A stretch of DNA of 36,850 nucleotides, from assembly GCA_902791165.1 (NCBI GenBank), contig CADAVB010000025.1, forward strand, positions 1 through 36,850, written 5' to 3'. The position numbers were made by a program, and so were the translations under genes. Shown piece by piece: positions 26,337 through 36,359 of the stretch. The stretch comes from an uncultured Bacteroidia bacterium (lineage in GTDB: Bacteria; Bacteroidota; Bacteroidia; Bacteroidales; F082). The notes under the pieces are model-generated. The model saw only the letters and a list, made by a program, of their open reading frames with translations. It made no database searches and was not told where the DNA came from. Position 1 is the stretch's first letter; the number at the start of each line of letters is the position of its first letter.

Positions 26337-29300
26337 TTACCTAACGATTACTTTTGCAGAAACAGTGTTTCTGTTGTTTTGCAGATGGATGACATAAAGT
26401 CCCTTGGCGAGGCTGTGGCTGACGCGCACGGTGCTGCCGGCGTTGATTTGCCGCTGCATCATGGCCTGGCCGAGGAGGCTGTACACGGTCATCGTGTAGT
26501 GGGCATCGCTGCGGTTTTCGATGACGAACTCGTTGCCCGTGTTCCAAATCGTAACATTGGCTTCTTCGTCTTCGTCCACGCTGGTATAAGTCAGGTCGAT
26601 GAAGATGGGCGTGTCGAGGCCGCCGTTGGGATTGACGGTGTTGCCTTCGGGTTGCCAGAAGCCGTTGCTGGTGTTGTATTCATTAAAGATGTTGCCGTCC
26701 ATGCCGATGATGGCGATGTGGTTGATGCCGTCTTCGCTGTCGTTGGGCAGGATGCCGCCAAACCAACCGTCGTTGCCAGCCACCAAATCCTTGTAGAAGT
26801 TGGCGTACTGGTTGATGCTACCGTAGTCCACGCCCACGGTTTCGATGCTGGTGGAATAAAGCGGACGCGGGTCGGAGGCGGTGGCATACAGTGCGGCAAA
26901 GCTCATGGCGTCTTCGTGGCTCTTGGCATAGAAGGCCGTGCCTTGATAGGTGTCGCGGTCGGTGCCGAAGTTGAGTACGGTGGCAGCGTCGGTGGTGGTG
27001 AATACATGGGCCACGGAGGTGCCGTCGTTGCCGTCGTTGATACGGAGGCGCAGATACACTTGGTTGCCAGGTGTGAAGCGGGCGTTGGCTGTAGGCTCAT
27101 TGACGCACCACAGCATGGCGTTGCCTTCTTCGTTGGTGGTGAACTCGCCATAGCCGCCCTCGGTAGCGAGGCTCGGGCTGGTGCTGCGGTAGAAGCCGTT
27201 GGCGTTGGCATAGATTACGTTGCCTGCGCCGGCCGTTTCTGAACCGTCGTTGCCGTCCACAAACTGGTTGGTGTAGCGGTAGGTGGCGTTGGGCGCGAGG
27301 TTATAGACAAACACTTGCGTGGCCACGGGAACGCGGTTGTTGTTCGAGCCGTTGTTGCCTTGGATGTACATCGGCACAATCGACTCGATGTAGGGTTCGC
27401 CTTCGCCGATGACAATACCGGTCAGGCTGATGGTGGCCGAGGCTCCACCTCCCGTGTGGGTGATAGTGCCCGCGTAGGTACCTGCTTCCAGACCGGCGGC
27501 CATGCGCACATAAACCGTCAGCGGCTGGTTGGTGATGATGCCGTTGGCGAACTCAAGCGTGATGGTGCTGCCGAAGGTCGCGTTGTCTAACGAGATCTCA
27601 AAGTATTCCGAAGCTGTAACGCTGACGTTGCCTTGGCCTTCGAGGTTCTCGGATGTCAGGATGTAGCTGCGCGAGGCCGACGGACCTTGACCGAACAGAT
27701 ATTCAAAGTCGAAGGTGTTGGGCGTGGCCGTGATGCTCGGGATGCCCGCGCTGCCCGAAACGAGAAGGATGTCATCGACTTCCCAACCGGCGGCTTGCTC
27801 GTCGGAGCTGGTGTATTTGAAGGCGATGTAGCAGTTGTTGCCGCTGAAGCCGTCCATGCTGATGGCTCCCGATTCCACCCAGTTCCAGCTGCCCGTCGAG
27901 AGGGGGCAGTTGATAGTTTGCCAGGTGGCAGCGTTCGGGTTGGTGCCGTCGTAGTCGTTGCTGAAGAACACTTCGATGTCGTCGCCATTGTAGTTCTTCG
28001 CGGTGCGGAAGGTGAGCACTACATCAGTGTAGGCATCCAAGTCGAAGGCAGGCGAGATGAGCCAGTCTTCGTTTTGGTGGGCTGAGCCTTCGGAATAGCC
28101 GTTCATGTAGCCGTAGTGGTTGCCTTGGTAGGAGTTGATGATCCATTCGGCGTCGCCGTCCACGCTCACTTGCGTCCAACCGTGCCAATCGTTCTCCCAG
28201 TCTTGGTTGAAGATGATGTATTGGTCGGTATTAATAACATAGGTGGCGCTGGCCACAGGGCTGTTATTGTAGCCCTCCATTTCGGCGTAGGCCCAAATGG
28301 TCATGTCTTCCGTTACGCTGATGGCATCTTCATACTCGGTCCAAGGTCCGTTTTCGGATTCGGTGCTGTAATAAATGGTAGCACCTTCGGTGGAGCAGCT
28401 GATGGTAACTTCTTGTGCCTCGTAGTAGGTTCCGCCTGCGGGCGTAAACACGGGAGCAGCCAATGTGGGCGTAGGTGCGTCGCCGCCTTGGCCGCCCTTC
28501 ACGAAGAAGTCGAGGAAGAAGTTGTAGGTCGCGCTGTTCATGTTGCTCTTGGAGTAAGGTGCGATTCTGTCGCCATTGTCATTGAGCTGAAGCGCAAAGG
28601 CACGAACGGTGCTTGCACCGATTGTCGAAACATTGGTGACGACGAAACCTGAATAGTTGGGTACCAAAGCGCTTTCTTCAGAGGTCAGGTACTCAATGAT
28701 CCAGTCCGTGTTGTCGCCGTTCAGGTTGAAGTTGGTGCCGCTGGTGAAACCGATTACATCGCCGTTGGTGTTGGTGAAGGTGTAGTTGGTTCCGTTCACG
28801 CCAACCATCCAATAGTAGTCGCTTTCTGCGTCGGCGATGGAAGCGGGAAGGACTTCAACACCGTCGTTGTTGGTGGTACTGACGATGGCAGAAACATTCA
28901 ACTTGCTGCTGGTGAGTGTGTTGGAGGCGACTTCGTAGGCATTGGCGGTGGCGTTGTATCTCGAAGCGATAATCACTTGGCTGCCATCGGTGAGTTCGCT
29001 CAGGTCGAAGATGCGGACGTAGTCTGCAAGGCCGCCCGTTGCGCCAGAAACTTCACCTGAGCAATGGACGTTAACAGAAGTGGCTCCTTCCGAAGCAATT
29101 ACCAAATCACCTTGATAACCATTGCAATCCAAATTAGCCTTCATTCGAACGTAAATTACGGTCTCTTCAACTATTCCGTTGGTGGGTGTCAGCGTGATGG
29201 TGCTTTGTGCGTTAAAGTCGTTGCCCGATGTAGCGGAAATTTCAAAATACTCTGCTTCGGAAATCATGATGTTTCCAGTCAGATTGAGACCGCTTATGGT

Positions 29301-32300
29301 GATGGTCTGTTCATTAGATGGGCCATCATATATAAGGTAGCTGAATCCCGTCAAGGACAAAGGTGTGGCACTAATGACGGGATCCGTCTGGATGGGGGTG
29401 GGCGGGTCGCCTCCTTCGCCACCCTTCACGAAGAAGTCGAGGAAGAAGTTGTACTCGCCTGCATAGCTGTTGCTGATATTGCTGGTTGAATAGGCTCCAA
29501 AAACGTTGAAATTATCTGTTTGATTATAACGCAGCGCGATACCACGGGTGTCGGAATCAACATTGGTGATGCGGAAACCGCCGTAGTTCGGAACGAGAGC
29601 GCTTTCTTCGGAGGTGGCTGCAACTATGGTCCAGTCTGTCTTGTTGCCTGTGAAATTGAAGTTGGTGCCGCTGTTGTAGCTGAGCACGTCGCCGTTGGCG
29701 TTGGTGAAGGTGTAGTTGCTGCCGTTCACGCCGACCGTCCAATAGTAGTTGTTTTCTGCATCGGCGATGGCGGCGGGAAGGATTTCGTTGTTGTTGCTGT
29801 CGGTGGCGCTAACGAATGCCGTATAGGTCATTTTGCCGCTCGTGAGCGTGTTGGCGGCGGCTTCGTAGGCATTGGCAGTGGCGTTGTATCTCGAAGCGAT
29901 AATCACTTGGCTGCCGTCTGCAAGTTGGCTCAAGTCGTTGATGCGTACATAGTCGCCTTCAACGACAGGTGGAGTGGGCGGCGTGGGTGCGTTGCCCGTT
30001 ACTGTGCCGCTGACATTGACGTAGGTCGTGTCGGAACCCTCGGTGGCAAGGGCGAGGCGCTCGTTGTATTCGCCCACTTCAAGGCCGGCTTTCAAGCGCA
30101 CAAAGATGGGCAGGTTGTTGAAATGTCCGGCGGGTGCGCTCACCATGGCAGGATTTTCGGGCTGGAACAGCTCGCCGCCGAAGGTGGAAACCTCGAAGCT
30201 TTCTGACGGGACGATGTAGGCCGCATCGGTCAAGAAGTCGCCGCTCAAAAGGAATTGGGCGAGTTCCGACGGACCGCCGTCTTCGTATTCGTAGGTCAAG
30301 CCGCTCAAAGCAGTCGGCGTGGCGGTCAGCTTGGGATTGTGGCTAAACTCGATGTCGTCGATGCTGACCACGCGCAGTTGGATTGCGTTGTAGCAGCTGA
30401 CAATGGCCGTGAAGGTTACACGGTCGCCTTCCAACAGACCAGGCACATCGGGGATGCGGTAGATGTTGATGCTCTCGCCGTCTTGCGTGATGGGCGTGTT
30501 GCCGTTCAGGTTGATGGCACCGATAATGGCGTTCTCTATCTTCACGCGAGTCGATTGCAAGAGGTTGTCGGCGGCAAAGTCGGCGTTGAGCGCGGCCACG
30601 GTCTGCACCTCCAAAGGTAGTTCGTTGCCGTTGGAGAGGATGGCGAACTCGTTGTCGTTGTTGCCTTTGATGCCAGTGAGTTCCACCAGACCGTTATACA
30701 CGGTTTTCTTGCCGTAGGCGCGCACGTTGTCGCCGATGGCGAGGTTGGCAGGCACGGTGTTGGAATTCAAGAAGAGGTCGATACCGGCTGCGCCGTTTTG
30801 CACATACACGTTGCGTCCGTCGATGAAGATGACGGTGCCTTCCACGCAAGCGTAGGCGTTGTTGGCCAAGGCGCGGGCATCGGCGATGGGCATCACTTCA
30901 TAGATGGTGTAGGTGGCTGTGGCAATTTCACTCATGGCATAGCCGTCGGCAATGGCAGCGGCTTTCAACGTCGTTGTTGCAGGAATACTGATAGGTTCGC
31001 TGTAAACGCTGCTGTTCTCGGTCGGGTCGGTGCCGTCCAAGGTGTAATAAATAGTGGCGTTTTCGGTGGTACAGCTGATGCTTACGGTTTGCTCAAGCAT
31101 GTAGCTGCCTTCGGCGAGGCTGAACGTGGGCGTGGCGGTCAAAGGTACTGCGCTGACGAGTCCGGTTAAAGTCACGGTGGCACTGGCTTCGCCGGAAACG
31201 GCAGTAAGGCTACCCGTATAGTTGCCCGAATCTAATCCAGCGGCCAATCTGACATAAACGCTGACAGCGTCAAGTGCACCAGTCGTCGGGGTGAGGGTCA
31301 AGGTGGCGGAATAGGTGCCGGTTTCCGTATCGCAAAGCTCAAAGTTAGTAGGAGCCGTAATGGTAACGTTTTCCACAAGGTTGCCACCCGAAAGGGTGAA
31401 GCTTTGGGCAGCCGAGGGACCTTCGTTTTCGGTATAGCTAAATCCCGATAAGCTTGTAACAGAAGCGGTCAATGTGGGTGTGGGCAGTTGGGGAACGTCG
31501 CCCGACTTGTAAAGGTAAACGTTAAGTTGGCCCGAAGCGTAACATGCGAAAGGCGAGCCATTGTTGTTGAGGCGCAACCAGTTGCGGGTGTTACTGCCTT
31601 GTGCTTTGATGGTGGCCACACCATCGCCGTCGATTTCAATGGTCCATTCGCCATTGGCGTTGTTGGTGGCTTGGGTCTTCAGATTGTTCGCGGATGAACT
31701 TGCAGCATAGAGGTAACCGCCATTAGCGGCATCGTACAAGGTCCAGTGGCCGTTCTCTTGACCGAGCGTCAGTTCATACACGGCTTCTTCGCCAGCAAGC
31801 GTGGCTGGAGTGACCGTGATGACATCGGAAACGGGGCTAACATCAACCGCAGACCTGTTGTTCGCGGTTTGTTTTCCCAAAGCCTTGTATTCCCCGCTCT
31901 TAATGCCGACAATGATGTATTTCTCGCCGGCTACAAGCGCGTTGGCGTTTTTGATTAAGGTGTAAGCTGTTTCTTGCGCGGGGGTCACGATGGTATAGGT
32001 TGCCGTGGCCACTTCGCTGTCCTCGCAGCCACTCTTGAAAGCTTTGGCCTTCACGGTGGTGGTGGCGTTGATGGTGATGGCAGAGTTGTAGGCTGTGCTG
32101 TTCGATGTTGGGTCGGAGCCGTCCAAGGTGTAGCGGATGGTGGCACCCTCGGTGGAGCAGGCGATGGTTACGTTCTGAGCCTCGGTGTAGGTGCCTTCGG
32201 CAGGTGTGAAGGTTGGGGTTTCCACCACAGGCATGGCATCCACGGTGCCGCTCAAGGCGACGGTTTTGCTCGTTGCGCCCGTCGAGGCAATGGTCAAATC

Positions 32301-33929
32301 GCCCGAATAGCTACCGACGGCCAGCCCAGCAATCATCTTCACGTAAACCGTGGTTGTGTTCAGCGTTCCCGCGCTTTGGGTGAGGGTCAGCGAGTTAGCG
32401 TAATTGCCGGTTGCCGTGGCGCACACTTGGAAGTTGGTCGGTGCGGTGACGGTCACGTTGGCGGTCAGGTTGCTGCCCGAAACGGTAAAGTTTTTGGCTG
32501 CCGAAGGGCCGTTGCCAAAGGTGTAAGTGAAGTCGGAAAGCTCGGTGACCGAGACGGTCAGTTCCGGATCGGCAGGGGTAACTTCTTCGATGTCGGCTGC
32601 GCTGCGGGGCAGGATTTCCTTGGTTGTGTCAAATTGCTGATATACACCAGTAATGTTGTAGGACTTGCCATCTACAAGTGTGGTACCAAAGTTGTATAGG
32701 GAAGTGAAAACCTGAAGCGTGGTTGTGCCGTCGGAAAGATAGTATTTGCCGCTGTTCACGCTGCAAGTCAGATTGTCATAGTGAACCAAAGCACCCGTGT
32801 TAAGGCCAGAAAGGGAGGCCATGTTTATGTTGGATTGAGTAACCGTACCGCCATTAGTGATGGTCAGGTTGCTGGCATCAAGATTGACAAGTTCGGCAGA
32901 ACCTTTATAAAGCACCAATGAGCAAGGCACGGCATTACCTGAAAGCTTTTTGCCCGCCGAGAAAGTTCCGCTCATGTCGGAATTATAGAAAATGATGAAA
33001 CCGTTCCCGTTGTTATCGGTGACAAAGATATTCTTACCATTGGTGGAAACACCAGAAACAACCCAGTTGTTAAAAGTAACCGATACTGGGGTTTGCGTGG
33101 AAGTTGCCGCCGCAAACAAATCCGGAATCGTGGTGTAAACCACGGGCGCGGCGGCTTGAGTGACGGTGACGGTCTTACTGGTGGCACCAGTGTAACTGAG
33201 CGTGAAAGTAGCCGTGCGGGCAGAGCTGGTCGTGTTTTGGGTGGTGGTGAAAGTTACGGCAGTGTTGGTCACAGCAATGTTGCTCACCCAACTTGCCGTG
33301 GTGGTGGCGTTGAGCGTCACATTGGGCTTGGGATTGCTAATCGTGTAGGGAATGTTGCCCGAAGTGGCGTCATAGGCCAAATTGACATTGTCGGCATTAA
33401 TCGAAGGCGTAGTGGTGCCGCCGCCACCAGAATAAGTGACAGAAATGGACTTGATGTAAATCGCCCTCGACGACGTTTGGGCGTAATTGAGAACGATTGC
33501 ACCGGATGCCGAGCCGGTGAACGTGACTTCCGTTGTGTCCTTGGTCAGCGTATAGGCATCGCCAAAGGCATTTCCACCCACGGTAACATTGAGCGTTCCA
33601 GCAATGCCGTTAGCGCCGCTCGTATTCACCTTGATTTCCGTAATGGTTCCTGAAATGCCAGACGTTGAAAATGTAAAATCCGAATAGGGCTTGCCTGCGC
33701 TGCCGAATTGCTGGCCTTTGGTGGCATCGTAGCCGAAGTAGTCACCTCCGGTTCCGGAAAAAGTCCAATCAACATTGTCGAGTGTCTTGGTTTGGTTGTT
33801 TGCGTCAAACACTTTTGCCGTGAAAGTGTAGGCGTAGTCGTTTCGCGTCTGTCCCACCATCCGTAATGGCAGGAACACCGTTGCCAGCAGTGCAAACGCT
33901 GCCAGCAGCAAAGTAAACTTCCTTTTCAT
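26337..33929 (-). CDS. 2530-residue multidomain protein exported by T9SS
   Basis: After a signal peptide (1-27) the domains read: a beta-sandwich (33-167); a BACON domain (175-260); an OB-fold-like segment (266-448); Ig-like repeat 1 (455-563); chitobiase-C-like unit 1 (570-647); a beta-rich module (653-808); Ig-like 2 (817-924); chitobiase-C-like 2 (932-1008); a second OB-like segment (1013-1195); Ig-like 3 (1199-1310); module A (1325-1503); Ig-like 4 (1516-1626); a second module A (1636-1813); chitobiase-C-like 3 (1823-1898); a choice-of-anchor-J/cleaved-adhesin-type domain (1904-2058); Ig-like 5 (2063-2172); an unrecognised region (2176-2445); and a T9SS type A sorting domain (2456-2530, MTVYSLLGQ...KVIVR). 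It should cross the outer membrane through T9SS and be secreted or anchored. No hydrolase catalytic domain is recognisable, so adhesion or glycan/protein binding is the best guess. Confidence 0.88.
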   Translation of the reverse strand: MKRKFTLLLAAFALLATVFLPLRMVGQTRNDYAYTFTAKVFDANNQTKTLDNVDWTFSGTGGDYFGYDATKGQQFGSAGKPYSDFTFSTSGISGTITEIKVNTSGANGIAGTLNVTVGGNAFGDAYTLTKDTTEVTFTGSASGAIVLNYAQTSSRAIYIKSISVTYSGGGGTTTPSINADNVNLAYDATSGNIPYTISNPKPNVTLNATTTASWVSNIAVTNTAVTFTTTQNTTSSARTATFTLSYTGATSKTVTVTQAAAPVVYTTIPDLFAAATSTQTPVSVTFNNWVVSGVSTNGKNIFVTDNNGNGFIIFYNSDMSGTFSAGKKLSGNAVPCSLVLYKGSAELVNLDASNLTITNGGTVTQSNINMASLSGLNTGALVHYDNLTCSVNSGKYYLSDGTTTLQVFTSLYNFGTTLVDGKSYNITGVYQQFDTTKEILPRSAADIEEVTPADPELTVSVTELSDFTYTFGNGPSAAKNFTVSGSNLTANVTVTAPTNFQVCATATGNYANSLTLTQSAGTLNTTTVYVKMIAGLAVGSYSGDLTIASTGATSKTVALSGTVDAMPVVETPTFTPAEGTYTEAQNVTIACSTEGATIRYTLDGSDPTSNSTAYNSAITINATTTVKAKAFKSGCEDSEVATATYTIVTPAQETAYTLIKNANALVAGEKYIIVGIKSGEYKALGKQTANNRSAVDVSPVSDVITVTPATLAGEEAVYELTLGQENGHWTLYDAANGGYLYAASSSANNLKTQATNNANGEWTIEIDGDGVATIKAQGSNTRNWLRLNNNGSPFACYASGQLNVYLYKSGDVPQLPTPTLTASVTSLSGFSYTENEGPSAAQSFTLSGGNLVENVTITAPTNFELCDTETGTYSATLTLTPTTGALDAVSVYVRLAAGLDSGNYTGSLTAVSGEASATVTLTGLVSAVPLTATPTFSLAEGSYMLEQTVSISCTTENATIYYTLDGTDPTENSSVYSEPISIPATTTLKAAAIADGYAMSEIATATYTIYEVMPIADARALANNAYACVEGTVIFIDGRNVYVQNGAAGIDLFLNSNTVPANLAIGDNVRAYGKKTVYNGLVELTGIKGNNDNEFAILSNGNELPLEVQTVAALNADFAADNLLQSTRVKIENAIIGAINLNGNTPITQDGESINIYRIPDVPGLLEGDRVTFTAIVSCYNAIQLRVVSIDDIEFSHNPKLTATPTALSGLTYEYEDGGPSELAQFLLSGDFLTDAAYIVPSESFEVSTFGGELFQPENPAMVSAPAGHFNNLPIFVRLKAGLEVGEYNERLALATEGSDTTYVNVSGTVTGNAPTPPTPPVVEGDYVRINDLSQLADGSQVIIASRYNATANAYEAAANTLTSGKMTYTAFVSATDSNNNEILPAAIADAENNYYWTVGVNGSNYTFTNANGDVLSYNSGTNFNFTGNKTDWTIVAATSEESALVPNYGGFRITNVDSDTRGIALRYNQTDNFNVFGAYSTSNISNSYAGEYNFFLDFFVKGGEGGDPPTPIQTDPVISATPLSLTGFSYLIYDGPSNEQTITISGLNLTGNIMISEAEYFEISATSGNDFNAQSTITLTPTNGIVEETVIYVRMKANLDCNGYQGDLVIASEGATSVNVHCSGEVSGATGGLADYVRIFDLSELTDGSQVIIASRYNATANAYEVASNTLTSSKLNVSAIVSTTNNDGVEVLPASIADAESDYYWMVGVNGTNYTFTNTNGDVIGFTSGTNFNLNGDNTDWIIEYLTSEESALVPNYSGFVVTNVSTIGASTVRAFALQLNDNGDRIAPYSKSNMNSATYNFFLDFFVKGGQGGDAPTPTLAAPVFTPAGGTYYEAQEVTISCSTEGATIYYSTESENGPWTEYEDAISVTEDMTIWAYAEMEGYNNSPVASATYVINTDQYIIFNQDWENDWHGWTQVSVDGDAEWIINSYQGNHYGYMNGYSEGSAHQNEDWLISPAFDLDAYTDVVLTFRTAKNYNGDDIEVFFSNDYDGTNPNAATWQTINCPLSTGSWNWVESGAISMDGFSGNNCYIAFKYTSSDEQAAGWEVDDILLVSGSAGIPSITATPNTFDFEYLFGQGPSASRSYILTSENLEGQGNVSVTASEYFEISLDNATFGSTITLEFANGIITNQPLTVYVRMAAGLEAGTYAGTITHTGGGASATISLTGIVIGEGEPYIESIVPMYIQGNNGSNNNRVPVATQVFVYNLAPNATYRYTNQFVDGNDGSETAGAGNVIYANANGFYRSTSPSLATEGGYGEFTTNEEGNAMLWCVNEPTANARFTPGNQVYLRLRINDGNDGTSVAHVFTTTDAATVLNFGTDRDTYQGTAFYAKSHEDAMSFAALYATASDPRPLYSTSIETVGVDYGSINQYANFYKDLVAGNDGWFGGILPNDSEDGINHIAIIGMDGNIFNEYNTSNGFWQPEGNTVNPNGGLDTPIFIDLTYTSVDEDEEANVTIWNTGNEFVIENRSDAHYTMTVYSLLGQAMMQRQINAGSTVRVSHSLAKGLYVIHLQNNRNTVSAKVIVR
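28491..29024 (-). repeat. Intragenic duplicated module, copy 2
   Basis: This codes for residues 1636-1813 (DYVRIFDLSELTDGSQVIIA to FFLDFFVKGG). It is highly similar to 29421-29957 in protein and, in several blocks, nearly identical in DNA, for example around 28940-28990 versus 29868-29920. It marks a fairly recent internal duplication. Confidence 0.85.
29421..29957 (-). repeat. Intragenic duplicated module, copy 1
   Basis: This codes for residues 1325-1503 (DYVRINDLSQLADGSQVIIA to FFLDFFVKGGEGG). The unit duplicated is this module plus the adjacent Ig-like repeat. Confidence 0.85.
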
Positions 33930-34035: not shown

Positions 34036-34103
34036 TTATGAACAAGTTTTCAACAGCTTATGAACAAGTTTTCAACGGTCGATGTTGATAATTTTGTTGA
34101 TAA
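34036..34103. repeat. Direct repeats with DnaA-box-like 9-mers
   Basis: A 19-bp sequence TTATGAACAAGTTTTCAAC occurs twice (34036-34054, 34058-34076; period 22). It is followed by TGTTGATAA twice (34083-34091, 34095-34103; period 12). The units contain TTTTCAACA/TTTTCAACG on the plus strand and TTATCAACA twice on the minus strand, each close to the DnaA box TTATCCACA. The cluster lies in an AT-rich spacer between divergent genes. Confidence 0.7.
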
Positions 34104-34149: not shown

Positions 34150-34683
34150 ATGAAAAAAATAGTACGTACAGTATGGATCGGAGCCTTGTCGGGACTGGCT
34201 TTCCTCGGCGCTTGCTGCACCACCAGAGGCGGCATCTCCAAAGCCGAGCGCAAGCAGCTCATCAAGGAGCGCGACTCCATCCAAGAGATTCTCAAACAGC
34301 GCGAAATGTCGGCCGTTTACGGCTCGCCAACCCTCATCCAGAAATATGGCCTCGAAACCTTGCGCCTCCGCAACCAACTCGATTCCATCAACTATCGCCT
34401 TGGCGAGGATGTGGACTTGGAACAGAGTGCTAAACAATTGGAAATGAAACAGAAACGTGTGACTTTGATGGAGCGCCTTGACCAACTGCGAAATGCCCTA
34501 CGCGAACGCGAAGGTGCCTGCGTTTATGGCTCGCCCGAAATCATCGAGGAATACGGCCGCGAAACCCGACGCCTGCGTCAAGAGGCCGAAGAAATCCAAA
34601 AAGAACTTGAAGAATTGGGCAAGCCAACTTCACAGATTAATAAAGGCGATGCCGAAGTCTTATATGGCACCAAGAGGCCATAA
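34150..34683 (+). CDS. Lipoprotein with duplicated VYGSP unit, partner of radical SAM enzyme
   Basis: The 177-residue protein has a lipoprotein signal peptide ending LGAC (Cys22). The mature part is a charged helical coiled coil holding two copies of a roughly 45-residue unit 69 residues apart: residues 39-84 and 108-153. Both read RE..x.VYGSP..I..YG.ET.RLR (VYGSP at 56-60 and 125-129). A third, partial motif VLYGTKRP ends the protein. The radical SAM gene starts 24 bp downstream. In the described Bacteroidales rSAM/lipoprotein system, as I recall it, the partner lipoprotein (TIGR04134) also carries YGxP motifs near its lipidated Cys, but with a different, Ig-like body. I infer that the YG-S/T segments are the modification sites. 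The ATG at 34150 is chosen as the only start giving a signal peptide. Confidence 0.7.
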   Translation: MKKIVRTVWIGALSGLAFLGACCTTRGGISKAERKQLIKERDSIQEILKQREMSAVYGSPTLIQKYGLETLRLRNQLDSINYRLGEDVDLEQSAKQLEMKQKRVTLMERLDQLRNALREREGACVYGSPEIIEEYGRETRRLRQEAEEIQKELEELGKPTSQINKGDAEVLYGTKRP

Positions 34684-34707
34684 AACGATGATTTTGTTGC
34701 AAGAACC

Positions 34708-35784
34708 ATGAGCGAACGCCTCGGCTTCTATAAAAAGGTGATGCTCGAACTCAACCGCGCCGTGCTGCAAAAGCGCACCGAAGAGCACGAGCTGCACCAG
34801 CTGTTCTGGGAATGTACGCTGCGCTGCAACCTCAATTGCAGACACTGCGGCAGCGACTGCCGTATGCTCTCCGAAACCGCCGACATGCCCCTCGACGACT
34901 TCCTTAAAGTGCTCGACGAAATCAAGCAGCACATGGAACCGTCAAAGGTGATGGTCATCACCACGGGCGGCGAACCCACGATGCGCCGCGACTTGGCGCA
35001 TTGCGGCCACGAAATCTCCAAGCGCGGCTTCGTGTGGGGCATGGTCACCAACGGCATGACGCTCACACCCGAGAAACTCAACGAGTTCGTCGCCAACGGA
35101 TTGCGTTCCATCGCGGTGAGCTTCGATGGCTTCGAGGACGACCACAACTGGATGCGCGGCAACCCGCAAAGCTATAAGAACGTTTTGGTGGCGGTCGAGG
35201 CTTTGAAACAGCACCCCAACCTCACTTGGGACGTGATTACCTGCGTCAATCAGCGCACTATCAATTACTTGCCCGAGTTTCGCGACTTCCTAATTTCGTT
35301 GGGCATCCGTCGCTGGCGATTGTTCACGGTGTTTCCCTTCGGTCGCGCCGCCAACGAGCCCGACTTCAAGCTCACCAACGCGCAATTCGTTGAGATGATG
35401 GAGTTTATCAAGCAAACGCGACAGGAAGACCGCATCCGCGCCGACTACGGCTGTGACGGCTACCTCGGCAGATACGAGGGCGAGGTGCGCAACCATTATT
35501 TCTCGTGCAGCGCAGGCATCAATATCGCCTCGGTGTTGGCCGACGGCTCCATCTCGGGCTGCCTCAGCATCCGCAGCGACTACCATCAAGGCAATATCTA
35601 CAAGGACAGCTTCTGGGAGGTGTGGCAAAACAAGTTCGGCGTTTACCGCGACCGCAAATGGATGAAGACCGACCGCTGCGCCGACTGCAAGATGTGGCGC
35701 TATTGCCTCGGCAACGGCTTCCACCTCCGCGACGGCGACGGGAAACTGCAAGTGTGCCAGTATCAGTTGATAGTTGATAGTTGA
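34708..35784 (+). CDS. Radical SAM/SPASM enzyme of the rSAM/lipoprotein system (TIGR04133-like)
   Basis: The 358-residue protein has the radical SAM [4Fe-4S] motif CNLNCRHC (Cys40, Cys44, Cys47), the SAM-binding TTGGEPT motif, and a C-terminal SPASM region: CX12GX4C (Cys267, Cys285), then CADCKMWRYC (Cys324, Cys327, Cys333) and Cys350 for auxiliary clusters. The phrases LFWECTLRCNLNCRHCGSDC (31-51) and GLRSIAVSFDGFEDDHNWMRG match the TIGR04133 family as I remember it. Such enzymes modify peptide side chains or backbones; the adjacent lipoprotein is the likely substrate, before export. The last five residues (LIVDS) and the stop are encoded by an AGTTGAT tandem array. Confidence 0.85.
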   Translation: MSERLGFYKKVMLELNRAVLQKRTEEHELHQLFWECTLRCNLNCRHCGSDCRMLSETADMPLDDFLKVLDEIKQHMEPSKVMVITTGGEPTMRRDLAHCGHEISKRGFVWGMVTNGMTLTPEKLNEFVANGLRSIAVSFDGFEDDHNWMRGNPQSYKNVLVAVEALKQHPNLTWDVITCVNQRTINYLPEFRDFLISLGIRRWRLFTVFPFGRAANEPDFKLTNAQFVEMMEFIKQTRQEDRIRADYGCDGYLGRYEGEVRNHYFSCSAGINIASVLADGSISGCLSIRSDYHQGNIYKDSFWEVWQNKFGVYRDRKWMKTDRCADCKMWRYCLGNGFHLRDGDGKLQVCQYQLIVDS

Positions 35785-35870
35785 TAGTTGATAGTTAGGA
35801 GTTAGGAGTAGGGACGCAATGCTTGCGTCCGAAATCTTTGAATTTTTGAATCTTTGAATTTCAAATCTTG
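35765..35870. repeat. Composite heptad-palindrome-octad repeat, copy B
   Basis: Four AGTTGAT and two AGTTAGG heptamers (35765-35806) are followed by the palindrome GGACGCAATGCTTGCGTCC (35812-35830) with GTAG before it, then 8-bp units AATCTTTG/AATTTTTG/AAATCTTG (35833-35870). It overlaps the radical SAM stop on the left. On the right its last unit contains the TTG start codon of aroK. Confidence 0.8.
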
Positions 35871-36359
35871 AATACCCGAATTTACATAGTAGGCTACATG
35901 GGCGCGGGCAAGACCACCGCCGCGAAGCGTATCGCCACGCGCTTGGGCTGGGACGTGGCCGACACCGATGCTATGTTTGAGGAAAAATACCGCATCTCCA
36001 TCCACGATTTCTTCGAGAAATACGACGAGCAACTGTTCCGAAAATTGGAGTCGGAGGTGCTGAAAACCACTGAAAACATGGAACATACGGTCATCTCCAC
36101 TGGTGGCGGCATGGCTTGCTGCCTCGACAACATGGAATGGATGAACTGCCACGGCACGACCGTGTTCATGCGCATCAGTCCCGAGGCCGCCGCCGACCGC
36201 ATCCTGCACTCGAAGCGCAAGCGTCCGCTCACCGACAACAAGACCGAGGCCGAACTGGCCGAATACATACAGCAGCACTACGCCGAAAGGCTGCCGTTCT
36301 ACGAGCAAGCCCACATCACCGTGAAATCCGAAGACTTTGAACCGTCATTGAGGGTTTGA
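35868..36359 (+). CDS. aroK: Shikimate kinase
   Basis: The 163-residue P-loop kinase phosphorylates shikimate at the 3-hydroxyl with ATP. It has Walker A GYMGAGKTT (9-17), shikimate-binding Asp34 in DTD, Arg58, the GGG motif (79-81) and a lid Arg in KRKRPLTD. No in-frame ATG precedes the P-loop (the first ATG codes for Met11 inside it), so the start must be the TTG at 35868. That codon lies in the octamer array of the composite repeat. No promoter or ribosome-binding site is obvious; it may be cotranscribed with the radical SAM gene. Confidence 0.9.
   Translation: MNTRIYIVGYMGAGKTTAAKRIATRLGWDVADTDAMFEEKYRISIHDFFEKYDEQLFRKLESEVLKTTENMEHTVISTGGGMACCLDNMEWMNCHGTTVFMRISPEAAADRILHSKRKRPLTDNKTEAELAEYIQQHYAERLPFYEQAHITVKSEDFEPSLRV

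Follow-up and report, generated by a model that had tools for sequence, protein, structure and literature searches.

The window analysed here, a 36,850-nucleotide stretch of DNA from an uncultured Bacteroidia bacterium (Bacteroidales, F082; assembly GCA_902791165.1, contig CADAVB010000025.1), contains a two-gene unit on the plus strand (34150-35784), in which a lipoprotein gene is followed by the gene of a radical SAM/SPASM enzyme of the family TIGR04133. The lipoprotein carries repeated Y-G-x-P (YGxP) segments, and a Tyr-Gly (YG) element was also found in the partners of other enzymes of this family. As YG is conserved in unrelated scaffolds and its copies are multiplied, it is very probable, judged from the sequences, that YG is the site which becomes modified. 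The proposed substrate is a coiled-coil lipoprotein of 177 amino acids (aa) (34150-34683, plus strand), recognised by its open reading frame (ORF), its lipobox and its homologues in related genomes. Its gene starts with an ATG at 34150, ends with a stop codon at 34681-34683 and is separated by a spacer of 24 nucleotides from the enzyme gene (358 aa; 34708-35784, plus strand).

The YG motif beside TIGR04133 enzymes

For comparison, 165 TIGR04133-type loci were used, taken from within the genus, from the order and from outside it, with the duplicate locus L194 having been removed beforehand. The set includes 11 enzymes far from that of the window (below 270 BLAST bits), which mostly score below the TIGR04133 cut-off; 101 loci, including the window, come from the set of relatives, 18 clade II genes of the genus were left out, and further enzymes exist that were found but not fetched. 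At 153 of the 165 loci YGxP was present in a nearby ORF of less than 450 aa, whatever the fold of the partner. The script behind this count accepted same-strand ORFs of 40-449 aa which end at most 1.5 kb upstream or start at most 1 kb downstream of the enzyme gene, a few of which may be chance ORFs. At six loci (L143, L144, L151, L173, L221, L224) a partner-like ORF contained YG without the Pro.

The motif was also recovered when it played no part in the choice of partners. Picking by signal peptide only yielded a lipoprotein at 152 of the 165 loci, with YG at 149 and YGxP at 144 of these; this finder, a heuristic of our own, missed the partners at L149, L201 and L222 and included some non-partners, such as an unrelated protein at L211. 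Among the 202 lipoprotein-like ORFs picked in this way, 194 contained YG (shuffle mean 52.7, maximum 72) and 174 contained YGxP (shuffle mean 2.55, maximum 7). Y-G-x-P was furthermore the commonest gapped triad in upstream lipoprotein-like ORFs that were chosen without the motif and thinned by similarity (53 of 57; shuffle mean 0.61, maximum 3), a count inflated by the remaining kinship of the coil proteins in this set. In a control with mechanically defined ORFs at the 101 loci, 114 of the 128 lipoprotein-like ORFs adjacent to the enzyme had YGxP, as opposed to none of the 83 distant ones; for YG the numbers were 125 of 128 and 23 of 83, respectively. A chance motif is rejected by the shuffles, the motif-blind picking and this comparison of near and distant ORFs.

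The partners carrying the motif comprise coiled coils, TIGR04134-type proteins, lipoproteins of 50-60 aa, short proteins without a signal and the linker of a kinase; the partners at L206 and L212 have three YG sites. The source genome (2.7 Mb, assembled into 98 contigs) itself encodes another enzyme of TIGR04133 (contig 2, 482 bits), which adjoins a 58-aa lipoprotein reading QAC-YGSP (L157). An earlier reading of the window, made from its letters alone (the sequence-only reading), had proposed YG[S/T/V]P as the core common to the lipoprotein types. A shared core is indeed supported by the sequences, but it is actually YG, usually as YGxP with x being any of several residues. The same reading had suggested a possible new substrate class for the enzyme family, which is borne out at this level and understated in its reach; the lipoprotein was found in no family of the libraries searched.

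Several partners deviate in their layout. At L152 (genome G027) a protein kinase ORF lies directly upstream of the TIGR04133 enzyme gene (-1334 to -36, ending 36 nucleotides before the enzyme start) and has two YGPP in the linker between the kinase domain and a membrane segment. Short YGCP proteins without a signal end the lipoprotein arrays just before the enzyme at L101 (5723-5989) and L092 (5698-5970), and the partners at L203, L204 and L144 are apparently secreted and not lipidated; their YG probably stands at the start of the mature protein or close to it (AQ-YGVP, AQ-YGAP and AQ-YGSW). Plasmid-borne enzymes of Parabacteroides distasonis, Phocaeicola massiliensis and the spirochaete Treponema saccharophilum adjoin YGxP lipoproteins as well. 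On the T. saccharophilum plasmid pTS1 (L334) a serine recombinase of the Mpi type lies beside the pair, pointing to horizontal transfer or to phase variation.

Co-occurrence and linkage of lipoprotein and enzyme

Homologues of the lipoprotein were found in 67 of 149 related genomes and TIGR04133 enzymes (E ≤ 1e-60) in 88 of them. Within the genus (90 genomes), the lipoprotein occurred together with a close enzyme in 63 genomes and alone in three, the close enzyme never occurred alone, and 24 genomes had neither (Fisher p 6.6e-19, ancestry not corrected for). This is a hand tally in which a close enzyme is one scoring over 540 bits, and many of the assemblies are incomplete. In a collection of named genomes, the best 80 of 87 matches to the lipoprotein alignment corresponded to 79 loci, of which 73 have an enzyme within 4 kb; the remaining six carry single-site lipoproteins. 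Homologues lying mostly without an enzyme nearby, which the sequence-only reading had named as a point that would count against it, were hence not what was found. The matches among the named genomes are Bacteroidales/Bacteroidia assemblies, many of which, by their titles, come from the rumen or the gut of other animals, with one belonging to Candidatus Limimorpha equi. Among 344 sampled Bacteroidales genomes, 80 had an enzyme match at E ≤ 1e-80.

In the window, the enzyme gene is followed downstream by a shikimate-kinase-like gene (35868-36359), and a shikimate-kinase motif was present in the stretch read at 33 of 64 close-enzyme loci. In L237, L241, L244 and L246, single-site lipoproteins lie beside the shikimate kinase with no enzyme in between and with a large gene of the type IX secretion system (T9SS) type on the opposite side. 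In the window, this site is occupied by lipoprotein, enzyme and shikimate kinase together. Genome G004 contains an enzyme locus without any motif-bearing neighbour (L139) and a lipoprotein at the shikimate-kinase site (L246), which suggests that the enzyme acts in trans on the distant lipoprotein.

The lipoprotein and its sites

The lipoprotein begins with a signal peptide ending in the lipidated Cys22 (residues 1-22; 34150-34215, plus strand; lipobox LGA-C22), with A21 and C22 being invariant in 23 aligned homologues. Two repeat units follow on the same strand, residues 31-86 (34240-34407) and 100-155 (34447-34614). They align with each other without gaps at a local score of 116, compared to a maximum of 56 in 2000 shuffles, so that a chance origin of the repeat is ruled out. 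The sequence-only reading was exact in placing the duplicated VYGSP at residues 56-60 and 125-129, and its repeat is real; the unit is nearer to 56 residues than to the 45 it had given. Site 1 (YGSP with Y57; 34318-34329, plus strand), known from the ORF translation and the homologue alignment, is lost in two of the 23 aligned sequences (members from L082 and L092). At site 2 (YGSP with Y126; 34525-34536, plus strand; residues 120-136 read REGACVYGSPEIIEEYG) Y126, G127 and P129 are invariant in all 23. The conservation of VYGSP, on which that reading had also staked its proposal, holds among the homologues. The partial recurrence VLYGTKRP at the C-terminus, noted at that time, proved to be a degenerate third site (YGTKRP with Y172; 34663-34680, plus strand), which is a full YGxP in several homologues (LYGSP, LYGVP, LYGAP); other homologues end before it. 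Single-unit homologues of 89-91 aa also occur, and at L082, L092, L101 and L109 tandem arrays of several lipoprotein genes precede one enzyme gene.

The AlphaFold2 model of the lipoprotein (mean predicted local distance difference test, pLDDT, 80.4) has helices at residues 31-53, 60-83, 90-121 and 129-157. The helical outline expected from the sequence is therefore seen, but the Y-G-S of both motifs falls into short breaks between helices (54-59 and 122-128) and not inside a helix. Each of these breaks may form the tip of a hairpin.

Searches with the lipoprotein against NCBIfam and Pfam reached no cut-off and gave only matches far below it. TIGR04134 (cut-off 39.8) matched neither the lipoprotein at E ≤ 1 nor anything in the source genome at E ≤ 0.001; a disguised TIGR04134 protein is thereby rejected, and the neighbour is, as had been claimed, a lipoprotein other than the usual partner. 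The cut-off of TIGR04134 was reached in eight of the 149 relatives, all outside the genus, and ten genomes of the genus had matches below it. In the proteins examined here, the TIGR04134 type is marked by a YGxP that lies close to the lipid Cys and precedes a carboxypeptidase-regulatory-like domain; weak CarboxypepD_reg matches were obtained for such proteins at L083 (over the cut-off) and L146 (below the cut-off). This layout is absent from the window lipoprotein, the model of which is helical and the Tyr residues of which lie 35 and 104 residues after C22. The window pair shares with the TIGR04133/TIGR04134 system an enzyme that is a full family member and an adjacent exported lipoprotein with YGxP, but differs from it in the helical, repeated lipoprotein. 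Carriage of the lipoprotein by phages was rejected, as a scan of viral contigs with the lipoprotein alignment A2 gave 11 pattern matches and none was confirmed.

The enzyme and its relation to other SPASM families

The enzyme reaches 557.7 bits against TIGR04133 (cut-off 425; residues 9-355 on positions 3-349 of the 350-position model), the family to which the sequence-only reading had assigned it. TIGR04133 is labelled a 'hypothetical equivalog', and its name, rSAM_w_lipo, carries no function; its usual partner TIGR04134 is named 'radical SAM-associated putative lipoprotein'. Eleven cysteines are invariant in all 165 enzymes: C40, C44 and C47 of the CX3CX2C radical SAM cluster motif (34825-34848, plus strand), C51, C249, C267, C285, C324, C327, C333 and C350. 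The SPASM region from C267 to C350 (35506-35757, plus strand) was recognised by a Pfam SPASM match and by cysteine conservation. The usual SPASM cysteine pattern includes a CX3C step, which is present in an aligned TIGR04103 enzyme from Nostoc; TIGR04133 enzymes lack a cysteine of this step and have the additional invariant C249 just before the region.

An AlphaFold2 model of the enzyme (mean pLDDT 93.6; predicted template modelling score 0.91) found its best structural matches in anSME, PqqE, BlsE, SuiB and SkfB (Foldseek). The best match, anSME (4k39, E 2.3e-14), is likewise a SPASM enzyme altering exported proteins at a short motif; it differs by sharing only 17% identity with the window enzyme and by acting on Cys or Ser of sulfatases. 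Among the 26 solved sequences matched, no chain was named PlpX. The window enzyme is not a member of TIGR04103 (116.9 bits, cut-off 725), which we take to be the same family as IPR026482, the PlpX family.

When the long-branched PqqE was left out, a tree of 30 enzymes placed TIGR04133 on one side of a branch together with the enzymes from Nostoc, Azospirillum, Aureibacter, Tropicibacter and Agathobacter (support 99/97), its neighbours being enzymes of the TIGR04103/TIGR03913 type. The alignment shows the elements WE-T-C..HCGS to be common to TIGR04133 and these neighbours. In the Nostoc cluster a Nif11 precursor with LYGLP-PELF at its end is followed by the enzyme (annotated as nif11-class peptide radical SAM maturase 3) and then by a 71-aa protein; another Nif11 precursor and one of the NHLP type, both near this enzyme, contain no YG. 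Among the best 60 of 127 plasmid records, the GDL-motif maturase TIGR03913 had the best E-value (3e-31) of any named family other than TIGR04133, and an unnamed Agathobacter enzyme had 5e-31. The peptides of the GDL-motif maturases differ from the window lipoprotein in being DUF1843 proteins with no apparent signal peptide. In those at L337 and L338, Y-G, Y-A or Y-M stands near the N-terminus, for which reason this maturase family may act on a related Tyr site.

Two of the plasmid loci show further features. The unnamed Agathobacter enzyme, a radical SAM enzyme at L343 (Agathobacter rectalis plasmid), has cysteines at the places of C51 and C249 in addition to the SPASM cysteine absent from TIGR04133, and may be an intermediate type. 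At L344, on a plasmid of Tropicibacter oceani, an enzyme that shares 47% identity with the nif11_3 enzyme of Nostoc is accompanied by a phosphotransferase, a trypsin-like peptidase and an M23 peptidase.

A proposed maturation of the lipoprotein

The two genes would, in our proposal, serve together in the maturation of a protein. While the lipoprotein is still in the cytoplasm and not yet exported, its X-Y-G-x-P segments, two full and one degenerate, would be recognised by the TIGR04133 enzyme without a leader of the kind known from ribosomally synthesised and post-translationally modified peptides (RiPPs), and their Tyr-Gly would be modified. The lipoprotein would then be exported, lipidated and displayed on the membrane, its altered sites lying where one helix ends and the next begins. 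The product might be a membrane-anchored, multi-site ketoamide; that it serves as a protease inhibitor or a covalent anchor is an unlikely extension of this idea. Judged from sequence, the explanation as a whole is evenly balanced between being right and being wrong.

The leading candidate for the reaction is, by analogy, the excision of tyramine, to which we give slightly less than an even chance. The literature on spliceotides and radical SAM enzymes was taken from passages of PMC10533398, PMC11002830, PMC8326336, PMC10373908 (section 10), PMC11117315, PMC10885120 and PMC12710340. As described there, PlpXY cuts tyramine out of X-Y-G, so that a ketoamide remains (PMC10533398, PMC11002830), it naturally acts on MYG and LYG and does not need the leader (PMC10533398), and PlpX belongs to IPR026482 (PMC11002830). 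Most of the 16 FtsZ tag constructs given in Table 1 of PMC10533398 have the form ...P[G/L]YGLPI, that is X-Y-G-x-P, and both tags reported there as accepted contain GYGLPI. The window lipoprotein resembles these substrates in its X-Y-G (V-Y-G twice, L-Y-G once). It differs in that PlpXY substrates are Nif11/NHLP precursors, whereas it has a secretion signal and reaches no NCBIfam cut-off. According to the review text in these sources, proteases are inhibited by spliceotide products, and splicing is widespread among bacteria. Among the literature matches listed, with subscription journals outside the scope, no paper linked TIGR04133 to a chemistry. The novelty of the proposed chemistry is uncertain.

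A number of observations weigh against this proposal. Only two of the 16 FtsZ tag constructs and neither of the two GYGVVFP constructs, in which the tag has no Pro at that place, were accepted by PlpXY (PMC10533398), which implies that the tag alone is not always enough and weakens the parallel to the partners without Pro; our estimate for tyramine excision was kept, since it depends mainly on the YG core and on the tag with YGLP. None of the genes in the neighbourhoods read was recognised as PlpY-like, although no search dedicated to a RiPP recognition element (RRE) was made. The absence of one SPASM cysteine that the Nostoc enzyme has, and the presence of the invariant C51 and C249 which it lacks, mean that cluster ligation and chemistry of TIGR04133 may differ from those of this TIGR04103 enzyme. 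When PqqE is included in the tree, the joint group of TIGR04133 and TIGR04103/TIGR03913-type enzymes is supported by only 48/2, the 15 comparison enzymes of the tree were hand-picked from plasmid matches, and NCBIfam family scores of 61 enzymes single out no sister family, as the AhbD, TIGR04053 and NirJ2 models score as well as TIGR04103. The peptides of the GDL-motif relatives carry Y-A or Y-M besides Y-G, and at L232 a paralogue beside a YGSP sibling has no Gly (CYAS). At six of the 165 loci (L139, L195, L198, L211, L216, L234) no YG partner was found nearby; L195 and L234 lie at contig ends, and L198 has only a partner-like C-terminal fragment. Of the three genus genomes having the lipoprotein without a close enzyme, G051 and G079 have a more distant enzyme only and G037 has none.

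Alternative explanations

The pairing and the site could be as proposed and the Tyr chemistry another one, namely epimerisation, dehydrogenation, hydroxylation or a crosslink of Tyr to a nearby residue. This is a tangible possibility, though one falling well short of an even chance. The structural matches include anSME, PqqE, SuiB and SkfB, whose chemistries differ, and the auxiliary-cluster cysteines are unlike those of the Nostoc TIGR04103 enzyme, both of which fit such an alternative; a change of the Tyr only would leave the strict Gly after it unexplained. Some linkages can be ruled out as the general chemistry. A Tyr-Pro link cannot be general, as Pro is absent at six loci that keep YG, nor can a side-chain cyclophane between Tyr and residue 3, since the latter is Gly in YGGP (4 of 202 distinct YGxP sites). 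The same applies to a Cys thioether, as Cys stands at position -1 or -2 in at most 98 of these 202 sites.

It is also conceivable, but quite improbable, that YGxP is a docking motif and that the enzyme modifies another residue of the lipoprotein. RiPP systems commonly have recognition motifs that are separate from the residue being modified; here, no other element common to the partner types was found, the 58-aa lipoprotein has little beyond its C-YGSP, some partners have no lipid Cys or any signal peptide, and the motif multiplies within one protein to up to three copies, as is expected of sites. Very improbable indeed is a lipoprotein that is no substrate at all but a coincidental or functional neighbour of an enzyme acting elsewhere. 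What speaks for it is that the evidence for a modification comes from sequence and that, in some species, the lipoprotein at the shikimate-kinase site has no linked enzyme, but the motif is enriched across unrelated partner folds and a close enzyme without the lipoprotein was found in none of the 90 genus genomes.

Returning to tyramine excision, we would tentatively, with rather more doubt than confidence, regard TIGR04133 as leader-independent tyramine spliceases for exported lipoproteins, with which Bacteroidales would display lipid-anchored proteins bearing one to several ketoamide beta-amino acids; their scaffolds would range from lipoproteins of about 50 residues up to coiled coils arrayed in tandem, and a kinase linker may be among them. 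For an orphan family of known name, the analysis gives a candidate substrate class found in no family library searched and a family-wide YG rule; a splicease chemistry is plausible. A substrate motif which is held across unrelated folds makes the TIGR04133 reaction directly testable with a short peptide. If tyramine excision is true, gut and rumen Bacteroidales make membrane proteins containing beta-amino acids, which would widen a known peptide chemistry to lipoproteins and place a natural electrophile on the bacterial surface.

Surroundings of the gene pair

Upstream of the lipoprotein gene, a gene for a large protein is located on the minus strand (26337-33929). Its repetitive product of 2530 aa has a C-terminus that by eye resembles a type IX secretion sorting domain, and in relatives the lipoprotein site is flanked by large proteins with a similar start. 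Shortly before the start of the lipoprotein gene, the 17 bases atgaacaagttttcaac were noticed by eye to occur as a direct repeat at 34038-34054 and 34060-34076, which is perhaps an operator. At clade II loci (L153, L155-L157, L159, L161, L166, L168, L169, L171), a conserved membrane protein of about 230 aa, starting with MKK[SAT]D or a close variant, is encoded upstream of the lipoprotein and enzyme genes.

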